From Gallionellaceae bacterium (GTDB lineage: Bacteria > Pseudomonadota > Gammaproteobacteria > Burkholderiales > Gallionellaceae), in NCBI GenBank assembly GCA_006218055.1, contig VBWD01000004.1:1-55281 (forward strand): a stretch of 55,281 nt of DNA, given 5' to 3'. Positions 25,798 through 31,990 of the stretch are shown here, piece by piece (position 1 is the stretch's first letter; every line of letters begins with the position of its first letter). The notes beneath the pieces are model-generated. The model made no database searches. It worked only from the letters and a program-made list of their open reading frames with translations, and had not been told where the DNA came from. The position numbers were made by a program, and so were the translations under genes.

Positions 25798-27243
25798 ATG
25801 TTCAATCTTAGTTCCAATAATACTGACCTGACGCTCCGCCCCAAGGTGGTATTCCTCAACAGCGTCTTTCTATTTGCCGGAATCGTGGCTTTCGGAATGG
25901 GCTTCTACCGCTGGCAGGCAAGCGCGGTCATGGGCGCTATCGATTTCATCTTTACGTCATGCTGCTTCACACTGGTCTATTATCTCAACCGCCACCAAGG
26001 GCGCGTCGAAATCATCAGTTCGATCGCACTGCTACTTTCATACGGCCTGTTTACCGCCATCTACCTGTTGGCTCCCTATAACACGACGCGCATTGCACTA
26101 TTCTTTTTGTTGTCAGCATCAGCCTTCTTCCTGAAAGGAAAGAGAGTTGGTTTCATCTGGCTGATTATCATTCTGTCGACCCTCGTAATGGGTCACTATT
26201 TGCCCGGTTTCGACACCGCCTATTCTCACATCGACATTGTTACAGCTTGTCTGTATTTGCTGGCGTTGTTCTTCATCTTTCTCAATTACGAGATATTCAA
26301 GGAGAAGGTCAATGAGGTTGAACGTGACAAGGATGTGCTGCGACTGAGCGAGGAGCGCTTCCGCGCGATGGTCGAAAACGGCAACGACATCATCAGTATC
26401 ATTTCCAATGCTGGCGTGGTGCATTTCATCTCGCCTTCCGTCAAATCGGTATTGGGGTTCGAACCCGGCGAACTGCTTGGCAAAAGCATCAATGAGCTGA
26501 TCGACCCTAATGAGCAACCAAAAGCCGCAGCGGCTTTGGCCAATGCACTGGCGCACCCTGATGGGGAAGCGCTGGAGCAGTATGAGTTTCGGATGAAGCA
26601 CAAGGATGGCAGCTACCGTGACGTCGAGATGGTCGGTCGCAATATGATCGAAAACCCCATGATTGGCGGTATCGTACTGAATGGACGCGACATCACCAAG
26701 CACAAGCGGCTAGAGCGTGAACTGGAGCGCCATGCGCACATTGACGTGCTTACCGGACTTAACAACCGGCGCTATTTCTTCGAACTGGCGGAACAGGAAT
26801 TGGCACGCTCCAAGCGGTACGGCGCCCCACTCGTAGTGCTGATGCTGGATGTGGATCACTTCAAGTTGGCTAACGACACCTATGGGCACCATGTAGGTGA
26901 CATGGTGTTGCAGAAACTCAGCGAAGTTTGTGTTCAAACCCTGCGCGCAATCGACATACTGGGCCGTATTGGCGGCGAGGAATTCGCCTTTCTGTTACCG
27001 GAAACCCTAAGCGGGCAAGCGTTAGAAGTGGCAGAGCGGCTGCGACTGGCCGTTGCTGGCGCGACCGTGATACTTGAGACGGGTAAATCTGTTCACTTTA
27101 CGGTTTCAATCGGAGTAGCCCAGCTTGCAGCTACTGACACCAAGATTGAAGACATGCTCAATCGTGCCGACATCGCATTGTATTCGGCCAAAAGCACGGG
27201 GCGCGACCGGGTATGTTGTGAAGGGATTCAATCCGGGCGATAG
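25798..27243 (+). CDS. Membrane diguanylate cyclase (PAS-GGDEF)
   Basis: A 481-residue protein. Five or six membrane helices (residues about 19-165) form an N-terminal sensor of unknown type, then a PAS domain (about 180-300, NGNDIISIISNAGVVHFISP), then a GGDEF domain. The active motif is GGEEF (about 391-396), compatible with diguanylate cyclase activity, and an inhibitory RxxD site (RAID) lies five residues before it. No EAL domain. The C-terminus after RDRV is short and runs into a spacer with mobile-element debris. The ATG at 25798 has no strong Shine-Dalgarno. Confidence 0.88.
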   Translation: MFNLSSNNTDLTLRPKVVFLNSVFLFAGIVAFGMGFYRWQASAVMGAIDFIFTSCCFTLVYYLNRHQGRVEIISSIALLLSYGLFTAIYLLAPYNTTRIALFFLLSASAFFLKGKRVGFIWLIIILSTLVMGHYLPGFDTAYSHIDIVTACLYLLALFFIFLNYEIFKEKVNEVERDKDVLRLSEERFRAMVENGNDIISIISNAGVVHFISPSVKSVLGFEPGELLGKSINELIDPNEQPKAAAALANALAHPDGEALEQYEFRMKHKDGSYRDVEMVGRNMIENPMIGGIVLNGRDITKHKRLERELERHAHIDVLTGLNNRRYFFELAEQELARSKRYGAPLVVLMLDVDHFKLANDTYGHHVGDMVLQKLSEVCVQTLRAIDILGRIGGEEFAFLLPETLSGQALEVAERLRLAVAGATVILETGKSVHFTVSIGVAQLAATDTKIEDMLNRADIALYSAKSTGRDRVCCEGIQSGR

Positions 27244-27246
27244 GAC

Positions 27247-27306
27247 GTTCGCCGATCGCAGCGCTTCCAGTTTGAAATCTCGGCTGTATCCTTCGTATTT
27301 GGCCAA
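27247..27306 (-). pseudogene. Possible N-terminal remnant of an IS transposase orfA
   Basis: On the minus strand from an ATG at 27306 the first 19 residues read MAKYEGYSRDFKLEALRSA, similar to the start of helix-turn-helix transposase OrfA proteins. The resemblance stops after about 20 residues, where the frame enters the 3' end of the diguanylate cyclase gene. No inverted repeats were found. A weak call. Confidence 0.3.
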
Positions 27307-27448
27307 AGGGTACCCAATCTTTGTATTTTGTCCTTGAATCCGCCTGACATCAATATACCCATAGGATAGGTAAGTAATAGTCCGTGGCCTATATATTCCG
27401 GCATATATCTATGGATATCTTTATCTGATAGCGTTCGTCTGACTCAAA

Positions 27449-27525
27449 AGGGCAAAACCGTCGAAAGGCGGTGACGCAAAATTACCGGACCTCATTTTCG
27501 CCAATTAGGTCAGCGGGATTGCAAA
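27449..27525 (+). promoter_or_regulatory. Cyclic-di-GMP-I (GEMM-I) riboswitch aptamer
   Basis: The sequence follows the GEMM-I consensus in order: GGGCAAAACC, a GAAA tetraloop (27463-27466), GGTGACGCAAA, a CCGGACCT arm, and AGGTCAGCGGGATTGC at the 3' side. The first helix closes as CCG..CGG around the tetraloop and the second as ACCT/AGGT. This matches the Vibrio cholerae Vc2 aptamer element by element. It lies 39 nt before a small gene and about 250 nt before a GGDEF-EAL gene, the usual kind of target. The outer P1 helix is weaker than in Vc2. Confidence 0.88.
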
Positions 27526-27530
27526 GTGAT

Positions 27531-27569
27531 CAGCATTTGCCCCTGTTGAAATAAGGAGAACAAATGCTG
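27531..27569 (+). promoter_or_regulatory. Start-codon-sequestering hairpin (riboswitch expression platform)
   Basis: CAGCATTTG (27531-27539) pairs perfectly with CAAATGCTG (27561-27569). The loop holds the Shine-Dalgarno AAGGAG (27553-27558) and the right arm contains the ATG (27564-27566) of the next small gene. The left arm directly follows the 3' side of the aptamer, so aptamer folding and this hairpin could compete. This suggests translational control; whether c-di-GMP turns it on or off cannot be read from sequence. Confidence 0.65.
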
Positions 27570-27779
27570 GAACGGTCAAATCTGCTGTACCCCCATATAT
27601 CCGGCCTGCTGACGGCTAGAAGTTTTCTGGTGTCTTCCGCACGGCGGCATTTTGCTAGGGCTGAGAATTACAGCCAGTTGTGGCAAAGGTTCACCAAATT
27701 TCCGGTATCTATATCCCGCTGTCCTATCAGGCATCTGATTGAATCTATCTGGAATTCAGAAGGGTTGCGATGCCGATAA
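27564..27779 (+). CDS. Small protein under riboswitch control, overlapping the MHYT gene
   Basis: A 71-codon frame with a strong Shine-Dalgarno (AAGGAG, 5 nt before ATG) placed right after the riboswitch. The peptide is basic, with no membrane helix and no family I recognise. Its stop (27777-27779) lies 10 nt into the next gene (ATG at 27770), which suggests that ribosomes finishing here restart on the big c-di-GMP enzyme. It may be a true small protein, a leader whose translation matters more than its product, or the relic of a longer gene. Confidence 0.5.
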   Translation: MLERSNLLYPHISGLLTARSFLVSSARRHFARAENYSQLWQRFTKFPVSISRCPIRHLIESIWNSEGLRCR

Positions 27780-30700
27780 GCTGGAATATCCCCTTGGTCA
27801 TTCTTTCGATACTGATCGCGATGATTGGATCGTTCACCGCCCTCACCCATGCCCAGCGTATGCGCGAGAGCAATGGTCTATGCGCGTGGGTTTGTTCGTG
27901 GGTCTGGCTGTGTACCGGCGGGCTGACGCTGGGGGTGACCATCTGGACCACGCACTTCATCGGTATGCTGGCGTTCCATCTGCCCACTCAGATTTCTTAT
28001 GACATCCCGCTGACATTGTTGTCGGGCGCATTCGCCATTGCGGCGGCACTGCTGGGTTTTTATCTGCTGTGTACGCCCGAGCTCAAAGTGAAACGCATCG
28101 CGGGTGGGGGGGTGTTGATGGGGTTGGGCATCAGTGCGATGCATTACACCGGCATGGCCGCTCTTGAGATGTCGCCGCCCATTATCTATTCCCTACCCAT
28201 CGTTGCGCTTTCCGTGCTGATTGCGATAGCCGCCGCACTTGGCGCATTGCTGCTCGTCTATGCCAGTGAGAAGCACGGCTGGAATTACTGGCTGCGTTAT
28301 GGTGCCGGTGGCGTGATCATGGGCTCGGCCATCGCCGGTATGCACTACACCGGAATGGCAGCGGCCGAGTTCTCTGCCGGCAGCATCTGTCTGTCTGGCG
28401 CATCGCGTATCGAGCCGGAGCTGCTCGCCATGTTGGTGTCTATGGGAGCGTTGACCCTATTTGCCGGGGGTATGCTGGCGAGCCTGTTTGATCAGCGCAT
28501 GGCCTGGCAGAAGAGCCAAGCCTTGGCACAATTGCAAGTTGTCCATGCGGAATTGGAACAACGTGCACGACACATGGCCGAGAGCATGACCCGAGATTTG
28601 CACGCCAGCCACAATATGCTCAATCTCGTTTTGGATGCCGTGCCGCAATCGATATTCTGGAAAGACCGCAACGGCGTTTACTTGGGATGCAACAAGGTGT
28701 TTGCCCAAGATGCCGGTTTGGCCCACCCCGAAGAGGTCATCGGGAAAACGGATTTCGATTTGCCGTGGACGCAGGCAGAAGCTGAAGCATTTCGGGCCGA
28801 CGATGCCGAGGTAATGAGAAGCAATGCGGCAAAGCCGCACATCATCCAGCAGCAACACAACGCCGATGGAAAACAGGTCTGGTTGGATACCAGCAAAGTA
28901 CCGCTGACCAATGGCGAGATGCTTGGTGTATTGAGTGTGTATGAAGACGTTACTGCACGCAGAGCCGCCGAAGCGCAGATCAAACGGCTGACTGAGCTGT
29001 ATGCCGCGTTGAGCCAATGCAACCAAGCGATCGTGCGCTGCACCAGCGAAGAAGAGTTGTTTCAGGAAATCTGCCGCGATGCGGTGCAGTTCGGCGGCAT
29101 GAAGATGGCCTGGATAGGCTTGCTGGATGAGGCCAGTCGCAAGGTCAAGCCAGTGGCTTGTTACGGTTCGGGCATCGAATATCTGGACGGGATTGAGATT
29201 TCGGATGATGCCGACGAACCCTCCGGTCGCGGACCGATCGGCATCGTGATGCGTGGAGGTCAACCGTACTGGTGTCAGGATTATCTGAATGAACCATTGC
29301 TCGTTCTATGGCATGAACGCGGCGCACGTTACGGCTGGGCTGCCTCGGCCGTACTGCCACTGCACCGTCAAGGAAAAGTCATCGGCGTCTTCATGCTGTA
29401 TGCCGGAGAGGTCAATGCCTTTGACGAGCTTGCGCGTAATTTACTGGTGGAAATGGCGATGGATATCGGCTACGCATTGGATAGATTTATTCTGCAGGCA
29501 GAAAAGGGGCAAGTCTTGGAAGCGTTGCGCGAAAGCGAGGCGCGCACCCGGCTGATTCTGGATACGGCCATGGATGCCGTTGTCAGTGCTGATCAGGAGG
29601 GCAGGGTGACAGGCTGGAACCGCGAGGCGGAGCGCATGTTTGGTTATGCTGCCGATCAGGCAATCGGCAAGGAGTTGGCCGAACTCATTGTGCCGCCAGT
29701 TCACCGTCAGGCGCATCGACAAGGGATGCAGCGTTACGTGGAAACCGGTAGTGCCACCATCATTGGCAAGCGCATTGAAATCATCGGGATGCATGCCGAT
29801 GGTTCTGAATTCCCGATTGAGCTAACGATTGCAGCCGCTCAGCGGCGGGGGCAATACTTGTTCAATGCCTTTGTGCGTGACATCAGCGCACGTAAACGGT
29901 CTGAAATTGCGATACGGAAGCATGAAGCCGATTTGGCGCAATTCAAGTCAACCCTGGATCAATCACTGGATGGCGTGTATATTTTCCAGCCCGACACGCT
30001 TTGCTTCGCTTATGTGAATAGGGGGGCCATGCAGCAGGTGGGTTACAGTGAAGGTGAATTGTTGCAAATGACGCCGCTGGACATTAAACCGGAATTCACC
30101 GAGCAGCACTTTCGCGAAAAACTAAAGGGGCTCCAGCACGGAAGCACAACGGTTGACACCTTCGAAACAGTGCACCGGCACAAGGATGGGCACGATATCC
30201 CCGTGGAAATTGTGCTCCAACTTGTGCATCACGGGGAGATAGGAGGGCGTTTCATCGCTTTTTCGCGCGACATCAGCGAACGCAAGCGGGCAGAGGAAAC
30301 TTTGCGCATCGCTGCGTCCACCTTCGAAATCCAGCAGGCTATTCTGATCACCGATGCGGATGCCAACATCCTGCGCGTCAATCAGGCATTCCAAGACATT
30401 ACCGGCTATTGCGAGGAAGACTTGATTGGGAAAAACCCGCGTGTGTTCCAGTCCGGACAGCACGATGCGGCTTTTTACCAGGACATGTGGACAGCGCTGC
30501 TTGGCAAAGGCAAATGGTCGGGCGAGATTTGGGACCGCCGCAAGAGTGGCGAGATCTATCCGAAGTCCATGACCATCACGGCAGTCCACGATGATGAGCA
30601 CAGGGTGAGCCATTATGTGTCGGTGTTTCGCGATATCAGTAATCGTAAAAAATCGGAACAGGAGATCCATCAGCTGGCCTTCTACGATCCGTTGACGCAA

Positions 30701-31990
30701 CTGCCGAACCGCCGCCTGCTGATGGATCGTTTGCAACAGGCGATGGTAGTCAGCATGCGCAATGGTCACTATGGTGCGCTGCTGTTTTTAGATCTGGATC
30801 ACTTCAAGACGATCAACGACACACAAGGCCATGCGATGGGCGACCTGTTGCTGATCGAAGTGGCGCACCGTTTGCAAGCCTCCGTGCGCGAGGGCGACAG
30901 TGTGGCCAGGTTGGGCGGTGATGAATTCGTCGTATTGCTTGAAGAGTTGAGCAGCCAGACGGATGTGGCAGCCGCGCAAGCTGAACTGGTCGCGGAAAAA
31001 GTTCGCAACGAGTTGAACCGAACTTACCTGCTTAAAGATTATGAGTGCCACACCACGCCCAGCATCGGCATTTGCCTATTCCTGGGCAATCTGGACGGCA
31101 TAGAAGATTTGCTCAAACATGCCGACGTCGCCATGTATCAAGCCAAGTCATCCGGGCGCAATGCCATCCGCTTCTTTGATCCCAAGATGCAAATGGCATT
31201 GGATATGCGAGCCAAGTTGGAAGCGGATTTGATTCAGGCGCTGGCTAAACAGCAATTCCAACTGTACTACCAGGTCCAAGTGGACAGCCTGCAACGCCCA
31301 TTAGGTGCGGAAGCATTGATACGCTGGCAACACCCCGAGCGCGGTTTGGTTTATCCGGATCAATTTATACCGTTGGCCGAGGAAAACGGACTGATTGTTC
31401 CGATCGGATTGTGGGTGCTGCAAGCCGCCTGCGCCCAACTGAATGCATGGCAGAACGATGCGTTGACCCGAGACCTAACGCTGGCCGTGAACGTCAGCGC
31501 CAGGCAACTTCGTCAGCCCGACTTTGTTTCACAGGTGCAGCGCACGTTGCTGACGAGCGGCGCAAAACCATCATCACTCAAGTTGGAATTGACGGAGAGC
31601 ACGGTGCTGGAAAATGTCGATGACACCATCGCCAAGATGCGCGAGATCAAAATACTGGGGGTGAACTTTTCCATGGATGACTTCGGCACCGGCTATTCAT
31701 CACTGCAATATCTGAAACGCCTGCCGCTGGATCAAATCAAGATTGACCGTTCCTTTGTGAGCGACATCACCAGCGACCCCAACGATGCGGCCATTGTGCA
31801 GACCATCATCGCGATGACACGGGCTTTGGGATTGAACGTGATTGCCGAGGGCGTTGAAACCACGGAGCAACTTGAATTTCTCAACTTGCGCGGTTGTCAT
31901 GCTTTTCAGGGTTATCTGTTCGGCAAGCCTGTGCCGATTGAGCTATTTAATGCAAGATTGAATTCTATAGACGGGGAACGGACTACTTAA
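27770..31990 (+). CDS. MHYT-PAS-GAF-PAS-PAS-PAS-GGDEF-EAL signalling protein
   Basis: A 1406-residue bifunctional c-di-GMP enzyme. The membrane sensor (1-245, seven helices) has MHYT motifs ([31 protein letters not shown]), proposed to bind copper and sense O2, CO or NO. PAS domains lie at about 280-400, 583-710, 722-840 and 843-960, with a GAF at about 407-577. The GGDEF domain (about 962-1137) has an intact GGDEF and an RxxD inhibitory site (REGD); the EAL domain (about 1145-1397) has EALIRW, DDFGTGYSS and the catalytic Glu and Lys residues. Both activities look possible. It lies downstream of a c-di-GMP riboswitch and ends at a shared terminator with acnA. Confidence 0.92.
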   Translation: MPISWNIPLVILSILIAMIGSFTALTHAQRMRESNGLCAWVCSWVWLCTGGLTLGVTIWTTHFIGMLAFHLPTQISYDIPLTLLSGAFAIAAALLGFYLLCTPELKVKRIAGGGVLMGLGISAMHYTGMAALEMSPPIIYSLPIVALSVLIAIAAALGALLLVYASEKHGWNYWLRYGAGGVIMGSAIAGMHYTGMAAAEFSAGSICLSGASRIEPELLAMLVSMGALTLFAGGMLASLFDQRMAWQKSQALAQLQVVHAELEQRARHMAESMTRDLHASHNMLNLVLDAVPQSIFWKDRNGVYLGCNKVFAQDAGLAHPEEVIGKTDFDLPWTQAEAEAFRADDAEVMRSNAAKPHIIQQQHNADGKQVWLDTSKVPLTNGEMLGVLSVYEDVTARRAAEAQIKRLTELYAALSQCNQAIVRCTSEEELFQEICRDAVQFGGMKMAWIGLLDEASRKVKPVACYGSGIEYLDGIEISDDADEPSGRGPIGIVMRGGQPYWCQDYLNEPLLVLWHERGARYGWAASAVLPLHRQGKVIGVFMLYAGEVNAFDELARNLLVEMAMDIGYALDRFILQAEKGQVLEALRESEARTRLILDTAMDAVVSADQEGRVTGWNREAERMFGYAADQAIGKELAELIVPPVHRQAHRQGMQRYVETGSATIIGKRIEIIGMHADGSEFPIELTIAAAQRRGQYLFNAFVRDISARKRSEIAIRKHEADLAQFKSTLDQSLDGVYIFQPDTLCFAYVNRGAMQQVGYSEGELLQMTPLDIKPEFTEQHFREKLKGLQHGSTTVDTFETVHRHKDGHDIPVEIVLQLVHHGEIGGRFIAFSRDISERKRAEETLRIAASTFEIQQAILITDADANILRVNQAFQDITGYCEEDLIGKNPRVFQSGQHDAAFYQDMWTALLGKGKWSGEIWDRRKSGEIYPKSMTITAVHDDEHRVSHYVSVFRDISNRKKSEQEIHQLAFYDPLTQLPNRRLLMDRLQQAMVVSMRNGHYGALLFLDLDHFKTINDTQGHAMGDLLLIEVAHRLQASVREGDSVARLGGDEFVVLLEELSSQTDVAAAQAELVAEKVRNELNRTYLLKDYECHTTPSIGICLFLGNLDGIEDLLKHADVAMYQAKSSGRNAIRFFDPKMQMALDMRAKLEADLIQALAKQQFQLYYQVQVDSLQRPLGAEALIRWQHPERGLVYPDQFIPLAEENGLIVPIGLWVLQAACAQLNAWQNDALTRDLTLAVNVSARQLRQPDFVSQVQRTLLTSGAKPSSLKLELTESTVLENVDDTIAKMREIKILGVNFSMDDFGTGYSSLQYLKRLPLDQIKIDRSFVSDITSDPNDAAIVQTIIAMTRALGLNVIAEGVETTEQLEFLNLRGCHAFQGYLFGKPVPIELFNARLNSIDGERTT

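Follow-up and report, generated by a model that had tools for sequence, protein, structure and literature searches.

The described systems closest to the locus considered here are the class-I c-di-GMP (GEMM-I) riboswitches, among which Vc2 of Vibrio cholerae precedes a tfoX-like gene (PMC3971182) and has been described as a translational OFF switch (PMC9262584). GEMM RNAs have also been placed upstream of diguanylate cyclase (DGC) and phosphodiesterase (PDE) genes, in a review (PMC3971182), so that neither the class of target nor the feedback idea discussed below is new. The RNA described here was found in 55,281 nt of DNA from a Gallionellaceae bacterium (the whole stretch analyzed, hereafter the window). 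It shares aptamer sequence, structure and pocket bases with the Rfam family c-di-GMP-I (RF01051, sub-model RF03167), differing in a P3 loop that lacks CTAA[AG]. Control appears to act at translation, as in Vc2, whereas the window RNA puts the start codon itself in a hairpin arm, has an apparent relay through a leader open reading frame (ORF) and serves a GGDEF-EAL target. The kind of target is the one known from GEMM RNAs before DGC and PDE genes; cassette duplication and a leader-ORF relay are not mentioned in the accessible portion of the review, and no description of either was found in the literature searched, which covered few subscription papers. A leader-ORF relay behind a class-I c-di-GMP riboswitch is unusual. 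Translation of a leader ORF can open a downstream start (translational coupling). Overlapping stop and start codons, and a start buried until ribosomes pass, are shared with leader-ORF coupling generally; here, by contrast, a riboswitch hairpin contains the leader's own start, and the leader lacks a coding signature.

The c-di-GMP-I Aptamer

The aptamer (Table 1) was the sole match listed at the gathering threshold in the 55-kb window, a single lower-scoring match of the same clan being omitted from the listing. RF01051, searched genome-wide, gave 64.5 bits against a curated cut-off of 35 (E 1.5e-12), and RF03167 (c-di-GMP-I-GGC), searched over the whole window, 60.1 bits against a cut-off of 59 (E 9.5e-12), a margin of just 1.1 bits. 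The covariance-model search that an earlier, sequence-only reading of this DNA had proposed as a check was thus positive with both models, and the aptamer elements named in that reading were all recovered where it had placed them.

The modelled pairs (20/20) and the ligand-contact bases are retained in the window copy, and its pocket bases, positioned from the cmscan alignment, are G27451, A27478 and C27522, which we take to be the equivalents of Vc2 G20, A47 and C92. An A at the decisive pocket position is the rule for the cGAMP type; the window has G there, and a cGAMP-type pocket was rejected. By reading, the window P3 loop (27493-27506) lacks CTAA[AG], a stretch that 50 members of an examined set of 64 family aptamers carry; the set consists of the 59 of 71 loci that matched the aptamer pattern, less one repeat of the window (L002), plus six. 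CTAA[AG] in the P3 region is presumably the sign of a tetraloop receptor, accessory and not defining; because the window loop lacks it, the GAAA tetraloop may dock differently. Judged by its sequence, the window RNA is a genuine class-I c-di-GMP riboswitch for which binding of the ligand is predicted, G20 being the base that decides for c-di-GMP over cAMP-GMP according to a review (PMC10333796).

Table 1. Features of the riboswitch locus in window coordinates, with the evidence for each.
Feature	Position	Strand	Evidence
Near-palindromic promoter/operator element ATATATTCCGGCATATAT	27391-27408	+	Common to other cassette copies
Candidate -10 hexamer TGATAG	27426-27431	+	Fixed distance, 17 nt past palindrome
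c-di-GMP-I (GEMM-I) aptamer	27442-27527	+	RF03167 60.1 bits, RF01051 64.5 bits
GGGCAAAACC aptamer element	27450-27459	+	Sequence
6-bp aptamer stem capped by GAAA tetraloop	27457-27472	+	cmscan alignment
GAAA tetraloop, first aptamer stem	27463-27466	+	Sequence; a GNRA tetraloop
GACGCAAA aptamer element	27473-27480	+	Sequence
Aptamer stem P3, A27480-U27520 ... U27492-A27507	27480-27520	+	cmscan alignment
CCGGACCT / AGGTCAGCGGG aptamer element pair	27485-27492 / 27507-27517	+	Sequence
Candidate anti-aptamer helix versus P3	27510-27517 with 27542-27549	+	Ligand-free pair probability 0.18-0.94
Start-codon-burying hairpin	27531-27569, arms 27531-27539 and 27561-27569	+	27/27 pair cells in three copies; platform fold
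Hairpin arms CAGCATTTG and CAAATGCTG	27531-27539 and 27561-27569	+	9 bp
Shine-Dalgarno (SD) AAGGAG	27553-27558	+	Sequence
Leader ATG, in 3′ hairpin arm	27564-27566	+	Sequence
71-codon leader ORF	27564-27779	+	Protein-coding status unsupported
Second hairpin, GGCATC 27730-27735 with GATGCC 27769-27774	27730-27774	+	Opening cost; shuffles; sequence
1406-aa MHYT-PAS-GAF-PAS-GGDEF-EAL protein	27770-31990	+	Pfam; catalytic motifs

Expression Platform and Direction of Control

The 9-bp hairpin, the AAGGAG and the ATG of the sequence-only reading are all in place. Its placing of AAGGAG in the hairpin loop holds as to location, but the motif is not free, being partly paired with CCCU (27541-27544) in the fold, and the 6 nt that it gave as the gap between aptamer and hairpin depend on where the aptamer is taken to end: the hairpin begins 8 nt beyond C27522, the last base in contact with the ligand, and 3 nt beyond the point where the covariance-model match stops. 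When the stretch 3′ of the aptamer is folded alone, the two hairpin arms pair with each other and the SD pairs with the same CCCU. The platform has a minimum free energy of -14.9 kcal/mol, a value that shuffling of its 5′ part reached once in 300 trials, and the fold of 27525-27580 was matched in stability by 7 of 200 shuffles of that entire stretch. Every hairpin pair cell is kept across the three closest copies (27/27), three pairs through one-sided changes; covariation of the whole structure in these copies was not beyond that of shuffles (164/500). Opening the leader start costs 10.7 kcal/mol, computed in the same frame as the enzyme-start comparison below, an unremarkable value that 127 of 400 shuffles reached. 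No intrinsic terminator was found in 27240-27800, and a terminator platform was rejected; the translation-level platform proposed earlier is upheld by the helix over SD and start, by this result and by a start distance that is constant in nine switches.

The lowest-energy ligand-free fold of 27440-27580 is a different, competing structure. The candidate anti-aptamer helix pairs without ligand at a probability of 0.18-0.94, depending on the transcript end, and at 0 with the aptamer enforced. The probability of the start hairpin is ~1 at four transcript ends when the aptamer is enforced and the pocket bases are held, and only 0.11 when the aptamer helices alone are enforced in 27430-27620 and the pocket bases are free; the predicted outcome therefore depends on assuming that these bases are held. 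Formation of the aptamer in the window RNA costs 2.9-6.2 kcal/mol, which the ligand must pay.

The direction of control was examined as the cost of opening the start with the aptamer enforced versus free, in seven switches and with transcripts ending 9, 30 and 60 nt past the start (+9, +30 and +60). At +9 the enforced aptamer raised the cost in all seven, by +0.6 to +5.6 kcal/mol (5.6, 5.1, 2.2, 2.0, 0.6, 3.1, and 1.8 kcal/mol). The differences at +30 were 0.6, 0.4, 1.9, -0.5, -0.1, 1.0, and 0.1 kcal/mol, and those at +60 were mixed likewise; over the two longer transcripts the bound-free difference ranged from -0.6 to +1.9 kcal/mol, and with its sign mixed in this way equilibrium folding failed as a proof of direction. 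The OFF direction is weakly favored, by modelling, since the cost rose in seven of seven switches at +9, and by analogy, since Vc2 has been classed as an OFF switch of translation (PMC9262584).

Leader ORF and Enzyme Start

The domains and motifs of the 1406-residue GGDEF-EAL enzyme, which the sequence-only reading had placed downstream of the switch, were found: Pfam matched GGDEF (E 8.3e-46) and EAL (E 4.2e-73), and the GGDEF, RxxD and EAL motifs, presumably the catalytic set, are present. The protein is predicted to be a bifunctional diguanylate cyclase/c-di-GMP phosphodiesterase, and its best named relatives (best segment) come from a Nitrosomonadales bacterium (66%) and a Gallionella sp. 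(74%). At least six GGDEF genes lie in the 26 kb at 25798-52162 (starting at 25798, 27770, 35152, 38292, 41226, and 50498), three of which also encode EAL and three MHYT. One review (PMC10333796) places Gallionella capsiferriformans in the group of species where c-di-GMP turnover proteins are densest.

The 71-aa ORF had been read as a small gene, a claim that did not survive. It has no Pfam match, and a search of 149 other family genomes returned noise only (best E 0.003, 33% over 33 residues). Its codon score of -0.275 was equalled or exceeded in 571 of 1000 shuffles, and all 82 of the 71-codon windows taken from ten genes, on which the score had also been trained, lay above it. Codon use, homology and Pfam thus reject the ORF as a gene; it reads as a leader ORF that the cassette ATG happens to open.

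The enzyme start is placed so that passage through this leader could matter. The second hairpin lies inside the leader ORF and buries the enzyme's own SD candidate (AAGGG, 27760-27764) and ATG (27770-27772), from which the enzyme ORF overlaps the end of the leader (stop at 27777-27779) by 10 nt. Opening the enzyme start (27754-27775) costs 15.0 kcal/mol; the 16 further window ORF starts compared with it, taken as listed and not as verified starts, need 1.7-13.0 kcal/mol. A cost as high was reached in 9 of 400 shuffles of the 5′ flank, and without the upstream arm of the second hairpin it drops to 8.9 kcal/mol. Overlap and buried start form the pattern expected for re-initiation coupling, and the coupling of the upstream ORF to the enzyme put forward in the earlier reading is plausible, with re-initiation as its putative means.

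Duplicated Copies and Related Switches

A search of 34 genus genomes with 27380-27800 gave matches in seven, and matches longer than 42 nt only on contig C12 of the source genome itself (own C12) and in genome G101. The own-C12 copy is 77% identical at query positions 3-194 (~192 nt; E 6.3e-35) and the G101 copy 67% over 153 nt (E 1.6e-5), and the alignment of the three opens at GTAATAG, on the 5′ side of the palindrome, spans aptamer and hairpin and closes with ATG CTG RAA. On this alignment the promoter-aptamer-hairpin-ATG unit is a duplicated cassette with homologous copies. The duplication and the promoter element, like the lack of this switch at other MHYT loci described below, go beyond the sequence-only reading. 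In own C12 the cassette ATG can start a PAS-PAS-GGDEF gene, for which an earlier in-frame start exists too. In G101, as in the window, the ATG begins an ORF that runs into the next gene, there one of 34 codons with overlapping stop and start (TGATG). The G101 copy (L204:723-854) is degenerate: with 25.7 bits against a cut-off of 35 its aptamer was rejected as a working switch, and no SD is visible by eye, yet hairpin, ATG-opened leader and TGATG overlap are kept.

The source genome (71% complete) holds two switch copies, those of the window and own C12. Across the family, RF03167 matched at E <= 0.001 in 105 of 150 sampled genomes and above its cut-off in 48 of the 150. A cassette model built from the three copies and run on 158 family genomes matched at E <= 0.001 in 86, and seven matches stand out: the three builders (151, 147, and 131 bits) and four new ones in G065 (85 bits), G141 (84), G120 (75), and G092 (70), the next best having 55 bits. 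Among 300 sampled genomes of the order, E <= 1e-9 was reached in the source genome only, genomes with the other known copies not being among those listed. Two weaker or partial switches were found on relatives of the own-C12 gene, in G138 (51 bits) and on contig C205 of G120 (42 bits, starting inside the aptamer at the contig end).

In nine switches (window, own C12, G101, G065, G138, G141, two in G120, and G092) the start codon lies 40-43 nt behind the C92-equivalent; in G141, both G120 switches and G092 it was chosen among neighboring ATG or GTG codons, and the spacings there may shift by some codons, while for one G120 switch the opening-cost and geometry analyses used different start codons. 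In the platform folds the start codon is fully paired in 5/9, partly in 3/9 (G065, G120, and G092) and unpaired in 1/9 (G138). The arms diverge strongly, from CAGCATTTG/CAAATGCTG in the window to GGTCGCGGTT/AATCGTGACC in G141. Out of 300 shuffles of the 5′ part, folds as stable numbered 1 for the window, 4 for own C12, 1 for G101, 9 for G141, 5 for G120 C205, 12 for G120 C98 and 5 for G092; those of G065 (82/300) and G138 (36/300) put the stability of these two platforms within chance.

All six complete downstream proteins searched with Pfam contain GGDEF and five of them EAL, a count that excludes both G120 genes (that of C98 is cut). The proteins of G065, G141, G138, and G092 are PAS-GGDEF-EAL, and that of own C12 is PAS-PAS-GGDEF (678 aa) without EAL; the G101 gene runs off its contig after 209 aa, and its sole match, to dCache, fell short of the cut-off of that model. 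The own-C12 gene (L203:5265-7298) stops after GGDEF, and its relatives in G065, G138, and G141 have 928-929 aa with EAL. Targets of this kind are not the rule in the family, since single-sequence phmmer found GGDEF or EAL behind none of the other family aptamers with complete first ORFs (0/42); 57 of the 64 aptamers have a first ORF of at least 100 aa and 42 of these are complete, and the cassette-type genes, all of them cut, did not get a fair score. By eye, the other class-I c-di-GMP aptamers (L003-L160) precede varied genes, including MotB-like, hemerythrin-like, secreted peptidase and secretion protein genes.

A riboswitch was present at 5 of 22 loci examined for relatives of the C12 gene, C12 itself counted (22 of 37 listed matches, upstream length unchecked locus by locus), and at 1 of 30 MHYT loci, that one being the window (0/29 others; L194 has only ~207 nt upstream). 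These 30 are the members of a longer list of MHYT places for which a locus was available. The other MHYT genes of the window (35152 and 50498) lie outside these 30 loci, and the window-wide Rfam search gave one aptamer only. Inheritance of the switch along with MHYT genes was rejected on the 1/30 count. Most simply read, these counts (5/22 and 1/30) suggest that the switch was first that of a C12-type gene and would then have been copied before the MHYT gene; other MHYT genes may instead have lost it, or it may have come from a donor outside the sample.

The Promoter Element

No sigma-70-type promoter was found in 27240-27800, and such a promoter was rejected. None of 100 shuffled versions of the window contained the ATATATTCCGGCATATAT pattern, which, with up to one mismatch, occurred in 11 of 34 genus genomes (reversed control 0). 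It is aligned in the three cassette copies, its core slightly changed in own C12. At the -10 position TGATAG is common to window and own C12, and G101 has TGTTAG; TGNTAN occupies this offset at 10 of 12 sites and other offsets in 6 of 708 cases (L213, in G066 C18, was left out as its core differs, and L207 and L214 are near-identical). Transcription would start near 27437-27441, as counted from the candidate -10 position.

The longer pattern CTATATATTNNGGCATATAT-N17-TGNTA (27389-27431 in the window), with up to three mismatches, occurs in 66 of 158 family genomes, many times in some, against one match of the reversed control, and by eye the element can be extended to a longer near-palindrome (L304, L314). 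With no riboswitch in view, it precedes an HDOD gene (L206), a DUF3391-HD gene (L209) and, in L205, L207, L212, and L214, the gene of a similar 127-128-aa protein that has no Pfam match (L207 tested); its orientation at these six loci is, by eye, that of the gene. In L216 (G066 C25) it lies behind a gene resembling the upstream neighbor of the own-C12 switch (metallo-beta-lactamase-like by eye), and no aptamer is visible by eye in the ~200 nt before the stretch ends. The element may possibly define a family-wide regulon under a putative regulator.

Proposed Mechanism and Alternatives

We lean toward regarding the window RNA as a translational c-di-GMP OFF switch that relays to the enzyme through the leader ORF and belongs to a duplicated cassette. 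The mechanism that we infer, with respect to ligand, OFF direction, re-initiation and direction of copying, would run as follows. With c-di-GMP bound, P3 and the C92-equivalent would be locked in the aptamer and the downstream strand left free, allowing the hairpin over SD and ATG to form and turning the start OFF. Without ligand, TCAGCGGG would pair with the CCCTGTTGA stretch and GCAAA with TTTGC, pairings that would remove the 5′ arm of the hairpin and open the start. Ribosomes from the released ATG would translate the 71 codons, melting the second hairpin over the enzyme start, and may re-initiate at the overlapping enzyme ATG, which would hand control to the MHYT-GGDEF-EAL enzyme. The cassette sits directly on PAS-GGDEF(-EAL) genes in relatives and, here, before an MHYT gene with its ATG opening a non-conserved ORF.

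An ON switch, in which ligand binding frees the start, appears unlikely. Homologous GEMM-I aptamers (c-di-GMP, cGAMP) occur as both ON and OFF switches (PMC9262584), and the ligand-free long fold of 27440-27580 pairs the ATG too (unpaired probability 0.01), so that the free state need not be open; the near-certain start hairpin with aptamer enforced and pocket bases held, at four transcript ends, and the cost raised in 7/7 switches at +9 both speak against it. Nor do we give much chance to a switch that governs the leader start only, the enzyme being translated independently from the SD at 27760-27764 with no translational feedback through the RNA. AAGGG is a plausible SD, and none of the 29 other MHYT loci examined has such a riboswitch, but the enzyme start is buried more deeply than the 16 other ORF starts, by a hairpin that has its arms in the leader ORF and without whose upstream arm the cost is lower.

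That the cassette copy before the MHYT gene is a decaying relic without function is decidedly improbable: the switch at just one of 30 MHYT loci and the G101 copy under its cut-off would fit decay, against which the window aptamer keeps its ligand-contact bases and all 20 modelled pairs and passes both cut-offs. A true small protein that works together with the enzyme would explain why the 71-aa ORF comes with SD and ATG and with a stop overlapping the next start; with a codon score that most shuffles match and all 82 training-gene windows surpass, no Pfam match and no better relative in 149 other family genomes than E 0.003 over 33 residues, it is very improbable indeed.

Implications for the Gallionellaceae

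Under the favored reading of a relayed OFF switch, feedback of c-di-GMP on its own turnover enzyme is plausible; its sign would depend on the dominant activity, as GGDEF, the RxxD site and EAL are all present in the window enzyme; for the own-C12 gene, which has GGDEF only, OFF would mean negative feedback. At this locus, control of the synthesis of a turnover enzyme by the very messenger that it turns over can be put to a concrete test. It also suggests that riboswitch control can reach a new gene without being fitted to that gene's own start: the switch carries a start codon and passes control through a meaningless leader ORF, and so control can spread. The broader proposal, of a portable cassette copied between c-di-GMP enzyme genes of the family that either becomes the gene start or opens a throw-away relay leader ORF, is advanced with slightly less than even confidence. 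With an ATG of its own, such a cassette would not need to land at a set distance upstream of the gene, and if this proposal is true, new same-messenger feedback loops would arise by copy and paste.
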